Below, in pieces: positions 22,376 through 25,805 of a DNA stretch of 34,872 nt (position 1 is the first letter of the stretch; the number at the start of each line of letters is the position of its first letter). Both the position numbers and the translations under genes were made by a program. Under the pieces are notes generated by a model. The model was not told the DNA's origin, did not search any database, and saw only the letters and a list, made by a program, of their open reading frames with translations. Source of the DNA: Thermoactinomycetaceae bacterium (lineage in GTDB: Bacteria > Bacillota > Bacilli > Thermoactinomycetales > Thermoactinomycetaceae); contig JANWJM010000050.1 in NCBI GenBank assembly GCA_025449475.1, positions 1 through 34,872 on the forward strand, given 5' to 3'.

Positions 22376-22594
22376 CTATGGTTGTCAGTTTACCAAGAGA
22401 ACGAATGTTTGTCAATCGATACCGAACATTGCCTCGAGCGTTGGTAAGGATGCAAAGGGGTGATTGCTCCGGAAATCGTTCTTTACTGATTTCGCTGTCA
22501 AAATGGTATTATTAATATATTTACAAAATAGTCATTGATTTTAGAATCGAACTATGATTATTATATACAAAATTACGAAAAGGTGGGAAATACC

Positions 22595-23392
22595 ATGGGG
22601 AAGGTAATCGCCTTTATGAATATGAAAGGCGGTGTCGCAAAAACAACCACAGCTGTTAATATCGGTTATACGCTGGCGATGGAATATCAACAAAAGGTTC
22701 TACTCATTGATGCTGATCCTCAAGCAAGTGCCACCGAATATATTCTTGAGAATGATCAAATTGCTCACGTGATGAAGCCTGAAAACACACTTCTCGCTCT
22801 ATTTGACCGCGATCATGCCAATGAACAAATTATCTTTCCGTTTACTAAACGATTTCACCTGATTCCATCTCATCAGAATTTAATCTATCAGCAACTGGAC
22901 GATCATCCATTCCGCTTAAAAGAGTATATTGACAAGTATCACTTAAAAGAGACCTATGACTTTATCCTAATTGATTGTCCGCCCACACCATCTGGTTATA
23001 CGACGCTTGCCTTGCTTAGCTCTGATTGCTTTTTAGTTCCTTCGACAGTGGAACCCATGGCGATCGATGGCATCCCCAAACTATTGACCGTCGTTCATAA
23101 CTTAAAAAAAGAGCAACAGGTTGACAAGCCTGTACTGTTGGGTTTGCTCTTAACAAAAGTTCAACCGCACCTCAATGTTTATCGAGATACTTATCAGCTT
23201 CTCAAAGAATGGGGCTACGAAAAATATCTTTTTAAAGAAGAATTGAAAAAACGAACGGAGATTTCCAGAGCCGTTCACACTAAGCAAAAAAAAGTAGGAA
23301 ATCAATTTATGCTGAACATGAAAAATGTTCTGATCCAAGAAGAAATTAAACGGATTTCGAGTGAATTTGCACGAAAGGTGGGAGTTCAATGA
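22595..23392 (+). CDS. ParA/Soj-type ATPase, no ParB partner
   Basis: KGGVAKTTTAVNIG deviant Walker A, LLIDADPQAS, FILIDCPPTPSGYTTLAL. Start at ATG 22595 with aaggtggg SD; the track's 22535 start lacks this. Confidence 0.93.
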   Translation: MGKVIAFMNMKGGVAKTTTAVNIGYTLAMEYQQKVLLIDADPQASATEYILENDQIAHVMKPENTLLALFDRDHANEQIIFPFTKRFHLIPSHQNLIYQQLDDHPFRLKEYIDKYHLKETYDFILIDCPPTPSGYTTLALLSSDCFLVPSTVEPMAIDGIPKLLTVVHNLKKEQQVDKPVLLGLLLTKVQPHLNVYRDTYQLLKEWGYEKYLFKEELKKRTEISRAVHTKQKKVGNQFMLNMKNVLIQEEIKRISSEFARKVGVQ

Positions 23393-23898
23393 ATACCAGC
23401 ACAAAATCCTTGATCCATTTGCTTATTGAATTATTGGATCAGTTAACCATCCACACAGAAAATCATTCCGATCTGTTTCAAGTGAATCGACAACAATGGG
23501 AAGAAGTGAAAGATGAGCTCTTCCGTCTAACGCTTGAAAAACAAAGTCCAGAGGTAAACGATCCAGAAGATCTACGCAGCCAACTATTAACATTATTGCC
23601 CCAATACTTAAATGATCCTAAAAAATTTCCTAAAAAAGAAGATCTTCTACGTTTTGCCCAGTGCTTACAGATCCCTCGACTCAAAAAATTGGGCAATAAA
23701 ACGCGATTTGATCTGATTGGCAACATTCTTGTCGAAATCGCAACGAGACCCGAGTCAGAACTGATTGAAATCGCACAATCTCTTTCGCTGGCGACCCGCA
23801 AAACAAATGCAATACAAGCAAACTCTTCCACATCGACATCGACGCAAACGCCAAAGATTAAAAATTGGTTTGACTTTTACCAATCACTAAAAAGGTGA
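23389..23898 (+). CDS. Hypothetical 169-aa helical protein with possible SAP/LEM-like region
   Basis: ATGA overlap with the parA-like gene; region DPKKFPKKEDLLRFAQCLQIPRLKKLGNKTRFDLIGNILVEI. Confidence 0.8.
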   Translation: MNTSTKSLIHLLIELLDQLTIHTENHSDLFQVNRQQWEEVKDELFRLTLEKQSPEVNDPEDLRSQLLTLLPQYLNDPKKFPKKEDLLRFAQCLQIPRLKKLGNKTRFDLIGNILVEIATRPESELIEIAQSLSLATRKTNAIQANSSTSTSTQTPKIKNWFDFYQSLKR

Positions 23899-23902
23899 TA
23901 CG

Positions 23903-25624
23903 ATGAAGGACCGAATTATCAAGCGACAACTGACCGATTATCGGGACAACTTTCACCTCGATAACTATCATGAATATGAACTGTTTGAGATGTTTTGTTG
24001 CTACTCCATTATTTCGCAATTTGTCAGCGGCGATCAGTTGGAGATCCAAGAAGTTACGGTAGGCGGTAAAAATGATTGTGGAATTGATGGGTTAGGCATT
24101 ATTGCTGGAGGACATGTGATTGACAGTGTAGAAACAATCGATACCCTCGCCAAACAATATCACACCTTGCCTGAAATCAAATTTATCTTTGTCCAAGCGA
24201 AGAGCTCAGATAAATTTGAACAAGGGGAAATCCTAAAGTTTTGGCGTGGTGTAAAGGACTTTTTAAGCCCGGAACCACAATTGACACAAAATAAGCAGCT
24301 CGAAGATAAAGCAGACATTCTTAACTATATACTGGATCATTACCATCTCTTTCGCGCGATCTCCATAAAACTATACTATGTTACGACAGGTACTTACTAC
24401 GCGAATAAAACAGGGCGACTTGAAACCATCAGGAATGAGATCATCAAGGAATTGACTGATTTACATATTACGGATCAAATCGAGATGGAATACGTAGGAG
24501 CTCTCGAACTACAAAAATATTATCAGCAGACCAAAAGACAACCAACTGCCGAGATCCAATTTGACCATCATGTGCTAATTCCGGAAATCGAAGGAATCCA
24601 AGAAGCTTATATTGGCTATCTTCCGCTCCATGAATTTAAAAAACTGATTGTCGATCAAGCAGGCGATTTAAAAAAAGGCGTTTTTTATGACAATGTCCGT
24701 GATTTTAAAGGAGAATCGAATCCCGTCAACTCCGATATTGCTCAAACATTGCAATCAGCCCACCCTGAACAACTCGTCATTTTGAACAATGGCATCACCA
24801 TTGTCGCCAAAAATATTACACAATCTCGAAATACTTTTCGGCTCAGAGATTATCAAATTGTCAACGGGTGTCAAACCAGCCATGTGATTTATTACAACTT
24901 GGATCGAATCCATATCGATAAAGTTGGTATACCCGTAAAGATTATTGCCACAGAAGATGAATCCATTACCAATGAGCTGATCAAAGCAACCAATAACCAA
25001 ACCGAGGTGGAGCGTGAGGAGTTATTAGCACTTTCCGATTTCCAAAAACGCCTGGAAGAGTATTACAATACTTTTACAAAAAAGAGCCAACGTCTCTATT
25101 ATGAACGACGAAGTGATCAATACGCCTATAACAACGACATTGAAAAGGTACGGATTGTCAATATTCGTGATCAAATCAAAAGTTTTTCAGCAATGTTTTT
25201 AAATCTGCCGCATCTTGCCAAAGCCTACTTTGGCAAATTAATCGATCAAATTGAAGGGAAATATTTTGTTGAAAGACATCAATTGATCCCTTACTATACT
25301 TCCGCTTTTGCGCTCTATAAATTGGAGTATCTGTTTCGTAATAAAAATCTCGATTATAAATATCGAAAATTCACTTTTCAGCTGTTGATGTTACTTAAAT
25401 ATGTGGTGAATAAGAAAGACCATCCTCCACTCAACTCCAAAAAAATCGAGGCCTATTGTGAAGAAATGATCAAGATCTTGGATTCACCAGAAGCCATTTT
25501 CTATTTTCTTCAAGCGATTCGAATCATTGAAGAGACTGTAGAAGATATTCATGATAAACAACTGCCTAAAAAACAAGCGTTGACCCAAAGATTGCTTCAT
25601 GTTGCCAAACAGATACAAAGCTGA
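23903..25624 (+). CDS. AIPR-family (abortive infection phage resistance) protein with putative PD-(D/E)XK-like N-terminus
   Basis: AIPR hallmark VILNNGITIVAKNITQSRN...DYQIVNGCQTSHVIYYN and IKATNNQTEVEREELLALSDFQKRLEEYYNTF; SD overlaps the upstream stop. Confidence 0.88.
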   Translation: MKDRIIKRQLTDYRDNFHLDNYHEYELFEMFCCYSIISQFVSGDQLEIQEVTVGGKNDCGIDGLGIIAGGHVIDSVETIDTLAKQYHTLPEIKFIFVQAKSSDKFEQGEILKFWRGVKDFLSPEPQLTQNKQLEDKADILNYILDHYHLFRAISIKLYYVTTGTYYANKTGRLETIRNEIIKELTDLHITDQIEMEYVGALELQKYYQQTKRQPTAEIQFDHHVLIPEIEGIQEAYIGYLPLHEFKKLIVDQAGDLKKGVFYDNVRDFKGESNPVNSDIAQTLQSAHPEQLVILNNGITIVAKNITQSRNTFRLRDYQIVNGCQTSHVIYYNLDRIHIDKVGIPVKIIATEDESITNELIKATNNQTEVEREELLALSDFQKRLEEYYNTFTKKSQRLYYERRSDQYAYNNDIEKVRIVNIRDQIKSFSAMFLNLPHLAKAYFGKLIDQIEGKYFVERHQLIPYYTSAFALYKLEYLFRNKNLDYKYRKFTFQLLMLLKYVVNKKDHPPLNSKKIEAYCEEMIKILDSPEAIFYFLQAIRIIEETVEDIHDKQLPKKQALTQRLLHVAKQIQS

Positions 25625-25627
25625 AAC

Positions 25628-25780
25628 CTAAGTCTTTGCTCGTTCCTTTCCATAAGCTTTTTGACCAATGCGCTCCATTTCTTCATAATAGGAAGTACCT
25701 TTTGCTTTGCTTGAAACATTTACAAAACCAAGCTTTCTGATGCCTCCTCGTCGACTCCATGTGATCGCACAAGGAGGCAA
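25628..25780 (-). CDS. Possible small (50-aa) protein or remnant, TTG start
   Basis: Uninterrupted minus frame (M)PPCAITWSRRGGIRKLGFVNVSSKAKGTSYYEEMERIGQKAYGKERAKT*; no convincing SD. Confidence 0.35.
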   Translation of the reverse strand: MPPCAITWSRRGGIRKLGFVNVSSKAKGTSYYEEMERIGQKAYGKERAKT

Positions 25781-25790
25781 TCAAATGTGA
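25741..25790 (+). promoter_or_regulatory. SD-sequestering hairpin and ATG-TGA start-stop element in the ecsA leader
   Basis: TGCCTCCT (25741-25748) is the perfect complement of AGGAGGCA (25772-25779); AAGGAGG is followed 7 nt later by ATG TGA (25785-25790). Confidence 0.4.
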
Positions 25791-25805
25791 ATAAGAGGCG
25801 ATCCC

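Follow-up and report, generated by a model that had tools for sequence, protein, structure and literature searches.

ParA ATPases are known for the positioning of DNA and organelles and, to our knowledge, have not been associated with immunity; likewise we know of no ParA in the MZA system. AIPR proteins have been assigned an N-terminal HEPN domain (PMC3506569), and a HEPN defence gene, Tha, has been described in the lysogeny module of a prophage (PMC11087260). The locus analysed here brings a ParA ATPase and an AIPR protein together in one operon. It lies in a stretch of 34,872 nucleotides from a Thermoactinomycetaceae bacterium (contig JANWJM010000050.1), which as a whole is called the window, and its features are collected in Table 1. 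A first-pass annotation, made from the sequence of the window, had described three tightly coupled plus-strand genes, and both the coordinates and the coupling proved correct: the ParA gene and the 169-aa gene share an ATGA overlap, and the 573-aa gene begins 4 nt past the upstream stop, with a Shine-Dalgarno sequence (AGGTGA) overlapping the TGA of that stop. We lean towards reading the locus as a mobile, modular defence-type operon of ParA ATPase, adaptor and exchangeable effector, in which the adaptor would tether and gate the effector and infection would free the nuclease.

Table 1. Features of the ParA-adaptor-AIPR operon and its flanks, in window coordinates.
Feature	Position	Strand	Remarks
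Intergenic region between the starts of comC and ParA	22376..22594	+	
Promoter-like hexamer pair upstream of ParA	22520..22547		consensus match only
ParA-family ATPase gene	22595..23392	+	265 aa; ATG 22595, stop at 23392
Deviant Walker A motif KGGVAKTT of ParA	22625..22648		residues 11-18
Adaptor-like protein gene	23389..23898	+	169 aa
Adaptor C-terminal helix	23866..23892	+	residues 160-168, W-containing; recognisable in most family members
AIPR/AbiU-family gene, putative effector nuclease	23903..25624	+	573 aa
PD-(D/E)xK-like motif of the AIPR protein	23987..24202	+	E29 23987-23989; D62 24086-24088; Q98-x-K100 24194-24202
Downstream intergenic region, up to ecsA	25625..25805	+	
Imperfect inverted repeat between the AIPR gene and ecsA	25741..25779		

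The trio does lie between comC and ecsA, which are 3.4 kb apart in the window; the first-pass annotation had it interrupting the comC-folC neighbourhood, but the relevant junction in the relatives checked is comC-ecsA. There the gap measures 177 bp in Seinonella peptonophila and 149 bp in another relative, both without the trio at this site, and in three other relatives a pilT-like gene is found between the two genes. The contents of the comC-ecsA junction (22376-25805 in the window) thus vary within the family between a short gap, a pilT-like gene and the trio, and therefore the junction may accept insertions. The window trio is located in a core region and not in a defence island.

The third gene had been proposed to encode an AIPR nuclease-like protein, and its product does match the AbiU/AIPR family over its full length (Pfam AIPR, PF10592, E 2e-45, 156 bits against a cut-off of 25; PADLOC AbiU, 415 bits, E 1.3e-124, residues 2-566), with E29, D62, Q98 and K100 all present. 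In an alignment of 79 AIPR sequences from many phyla these residues, all of them in the N-terminal half, are conserved in 76/76, 77/77, 79/79 and 66/79 sequences, respectively. In a confident AlphaFold model (pLDDT 89) E29 lies in a helix, while D62 opens one strand and Q98-x-K100 closes another, a predicted strand-helix order that fits the pattern of PD-(D/E)xK nucleases; a Foldseek search of the PDB with this model gave no significant match and no resembling solved fold, and the PD-(D/E)xK fold is not confirmed by it. Because the E/D/QxK residues are conserved and the model follows this pattern, the window protein, which belongs to an abortive-infection family already known, is probably active as a nuclease. 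The N-terminal HEPN assignment (PMC3506569) is at odds with this AIPR subfamily, in which the conserved N-terminal residues are E, D, Q and K and there is no conserved R...H. As a side observation, E replaces K100 (24200-24202 in the window) in 12 of the 79 sequences, all of which keep Q98; these sequences possibly represent a natural variant of the nuclease motif.

Among about 80 AIPR loci a single one, in Seinonella peptonophila (also Thermoactinomycetaceae), has the same trio with the order kept; the window and Seinonella proteins compare at about 46% for ParA and 30% for the small protein. Since the Seinonella trio lies at a different chromosomal site and the Seinonella comC-ecsA junction is empty, the trio moves as one unit. 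Searches with sensitive profiles turned up no adaptor at any of the remaining AIPR loci. Three of these have a ParA gene about 3-6 kb away (L052, L054 and L074, the first of them without a small gene adjoining ParA) and were discarded as candidates. Conservation of the neighbours with AIPR, on which the first-pass annotation had made its proposal depend, therefore extends to just one AIPR relative, which by itself would count against the proposal; it is the pair of ParA and small protein that recurs elsewhere. That about 77 other AIPR relatives lack this pair, with no recurring tight upstream partner seen among them, would suit an AIPR protein that acts alone like other AbiU/AIPR proteins, its ParA and small protein tuning expression or being passengers. 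We hold this to be unlikely in view of a trio that forms a unit with overlapping genes at unrelated sites in two genera, and of trio-specific changes at otherwise near-invariant sites. The two trio AIPR proteins share seven departures at positions with at least 90% invariance in the other sequences, the highest count among 256 AIPR pairs of similar divergence (mean 0.22), and both keep the catalytic residues. This fits an altered constraint after the gain of partners, although such departures could likewise arise from nothing more than a long stem branch.

The ParA and small-protein pair was found at 15 distinct loci across Bacillota and temperate phages. ParA, small gene and third gene are contiguous and coupled in translation in all 15, with a spacing ranging from an overlap to 15 nt, and in 13 of them the third gene differs from AIPR and encodes a protein of about 225-257 aa with the pattern R-x3-E...Y-x7-H (here the R...H protein), truncated in one locus. 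This gene is absent from the window and Seinonella operons, which have AIPR in its place; these are the two AIPR-type trios found, both from one bacterial family. The non-AIPR third proteins constitute one family in which R-x3-E and Y-x7-H are invariant. They gave weak DUF5677 scores below the cut-off (E 0.0035 and 0.034), with the R and H of the motif lying far apart, and neither a PADLOC match nor a meaningful NCBIfam match; their profile did not match AIPR, so that the two families are unrelated by profile. Given that 13 of 15 loci carry this other third gene and that so many AIPR relatives stand without the pair, what emerges is a ParA and adaptor module whose third component can be exchanged; the AIPR version, present in the window, is the rarer one. 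This modularity, a constant pair with an exchanged third gene, is well supported. The first-pass annotation had taken the ATPase and the small protein to be dedicated partners of AIPR: they are dedicated to each other, but not to AIPR in particular.

These loci came from several searches. A ParA profile run against 401 genomes of the class gave three strong matches (465-482 bits) and a weaker tail (158-124 bits) that merges with ordinary Soj; of the tail hits inspected, seven loci (L148-L154) have the small gene, each with ParA, a gene of 113-153 aa and a gene of about 225-255 aa, tightly packed. Run independently, a profile of the small protein returned 10 of the 401 genomes, all with an operon ParA and the same as in the ParA search, with an additional copy in one genome, and among 400 genomes of the phylum it added two further true loci (L176 and L177). 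The phage carriers, sampled from an annotated phage collection only, were Lactococcus phage PLg-TB25, Streptococcus phage Javan1 (whose prophage genes are those of locus L151) and Lactobacillus phage LF1. Three candidates were set aside: L178 (small-protein E 8e-4) is an ATP synthase and a false positive, and of two weaker hits in the ParA tail, L155 proved to be a usual ParA/ParB pair, while in L156 the ParA has no adaptor. It should also be noted that one genome holds two operon copies, L117, which is intact, and L171, on a short contig, whose third gene is shortened to 145 aa.

That the first gene encodes a ParA-type ATPase was borne out by the Pfam AAA_31 match (E 4.2e-39) and by the deviant Walker A motif, accompanied by D39 and LIDCPP. 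The Walker A motif of the window protein reads KGGVAKTT, as against KGGVGKTT in the 14 other operon ParAs. In a phylogenetic tree the 15 operon ParAs, the window protein included, form a single clade (support 100/99) separate from chromosomal Soj and other ParAs. Within it the window and Seinonella proteins pair (95/92) as sister to the ParA of L117 (96/95), a locus of another Bacilli family in which a 257-aa gene different from AIPR comes after ParA and the small gene, and the pair is nested among operons of the R...H type. Because the AIPR-type ParAs nest inside the R...H-type clade, the tree is most simply explained if AIPR/AbiU took the place of the R...H third gene, and did so once. With just two AIPR-type trios, both in one family, the association with AIPR could be a single lucky capture with little function.

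The small protein of the window gave no significant family match in Pfam, PADLOC, NCBIfam or PHROGs, and no match to ParB or a helix-turn-helix in Pfam, NCBIfam, PHROGs or PDB sequences. Its low-confidence AlphaFold model (pLDDT 61), for which Foldseek found nothing significant in the PDB, consists of a helical core at about residues 62-132, an unstructured linker and a short C-terminal helix, NWFDFYQSLK. Homologues of the window adaptor are found in L002 (the Seinonella locus), in L117 and in the phrog_6264/phrog_12497 family. It is L117 that bridges to this family, its small protein matching phrog_12497 (5e-7) and phrog_6264 (9e-6); other small proteins match phrog_6264 with E down to 1e-27. 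In a profile-profile comparison (hhalign) the window group aligned with the rest at E 3e-6, and leave-one-out profiles recovered every member, the window protein with E 3e-8. When all three members of the window group were left out, L117 was recovered at 1e-6 and the window protein scored E 0.083 (Z=4000), which is why the link of the window adaptor to the family depends on L117. Judged by these profiles the small proteins are one family; they share the pattern F-x2-N-x-[DE] ... S-R-T in the helical core, and most terminate in a C-terminal peptide containing W or another aromatic residue. As this peptide is common to operons with different third genes, it is more likely the part that binds ParA, and the core would then contact the effector.

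In Javan1 and LF1 the operon has the repressor on one side and the integrase on the other; it adjoins an integrase in L151 and lysis genes in L153 and L154. Locations of this kind, which were counted in favour of defence, house accessory genes, defence genes like Tha (PMC11087260) among them. Three divergent copies from a single family (L149, L150 and L153) stand in contexts that are chromosomal in some cases and prophage in others, suggesting frequent transfer. Membership of the ParA family, whose relatives are common on plasmids and are annotated as partition proteins in phages, would also suit a partition or maintenance module, in which ParA would work with a small ParB-like protein to segregate or stabilise mobile DNA, the third gene being cargo or a helper. 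This we judge quite improbable. Among 72,556 plasmids neither the small protein (two queries) nor the R...H protein (one query) was found, a search in which divergent members could be missed, and no iteron or centromere-like repeat array precedes ParA, the region 22376-22640 holding just short two-copy repeats; both observations argue against ordinary partition. In addition, the copies reside in integrated prophages or chromosomes, the small protein is without a ParB domain, and the third gene has been exchanged for a protein of an abortive-infection family. Another rival explanation is a toxin-antitoxin-like unit serving the addiction of mobile elements and not defence, with the small protein as antitoxin of the third gene product and ParA as an ATP-dependent switch. 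The small gene directly precedes the putative toxin in every locus and the operon is located on mobile elements, as this explanation would have it; addiction modules, however, are frequent on plasmids, where this operon was not found, and a leading ATPase is an unusual gene order for toxin-antitoxin units, so that we give it a low probability.

We infer a defence role for the ParA, adaptor and effector operon from the identity of the AIPR protein and from the prophage setting. How gating might proceed is speculative as regards the partners bound, the trigger and the target. ATP-bound ParA dimers would sit on DNA; the C-terminal helix of the adaptor would dock on ParA, the constant part, while the adaptor core keeps the variable effector restrained. 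Infection would then perturb the ATPase cycle of ParA or the DNA surface and release the effector, which would cut nucleic acid and thereby halt the infection. Still more tentatively, and as a possibility we rate below an even chance, the loci could represent an undescribed class of immune operon, borne by prophages and chromosomes, in which ParA gates interchangeable effectors via a tethering adaptor and the dynamics of ParA on DNA serve as the infection sensor. If true, this would amount to a new sensing or gating principle for bacterial immunity, would give a function to two phage protein families and would explain why some AIPR proteins have partners while most stand alone. The swap of the third gene enables a clean test, with the same sensor and a different effector.

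The first-pass annotation knew of no described system of this composition, and we likewise found no match to a ParA and adaptor operon in PADLOC 2023, in NCBIfam, by function in PHROGs or in the open-access literature searched; the effector belongs to a known family, and the ParA and adaptor operon is provisionally taken to have been unnamed before. Assignment to a known system, which that annotation had weighed, holds for one gene: AIPR matches PADLOC AbiU, but PADLOC alone would report AbiU only. Both the adaptor and the R...H protein fall within, or at the edge of, the phage families phrog_6264, phrog_12497 and phrog_7540, for which PHROGs gives neither function nor operon. ParABS and plasmid ParA/PrgP systems resemble the operon in that a small gene comes after the gene for a deviant Walker A ATPase; the operon ParAs, however, are a clade of their own with an exchangeable third gene, and the operon has neither a ParB domain nor centromere repeats and was not found on plasmids. 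MZA shares a multi-gene operon with an AIPR protein, MzaE, yet the score with the MzaE model (NCBIfam NF041935) is 52 bits where the cut-off is 1050, and the window has no MzaA-D genes. Defence genes of the Tha type share with the sister operons the repressor-integrase region of temperate phages (PMC11087260), although Tha, a HEPN protein of another kind, has neither ParA nor adaptor with it, and the R...H protein is at most a putative HEPN protein. AbiU/AIPR proteins resemble the operon in its effector, with a near full-length match, a conserved core motif (DYQIVNGCQTS) and the E/D/QxK residues common to the 79 aligned sequences. Whereas the relatives checked have neither ParA nor adaptor, the window protein is encoded by the third gene of a ParA-adaptor operon, and several residues that are nearly invariant in the other sequences, none of them in the active site, have been lost from it.
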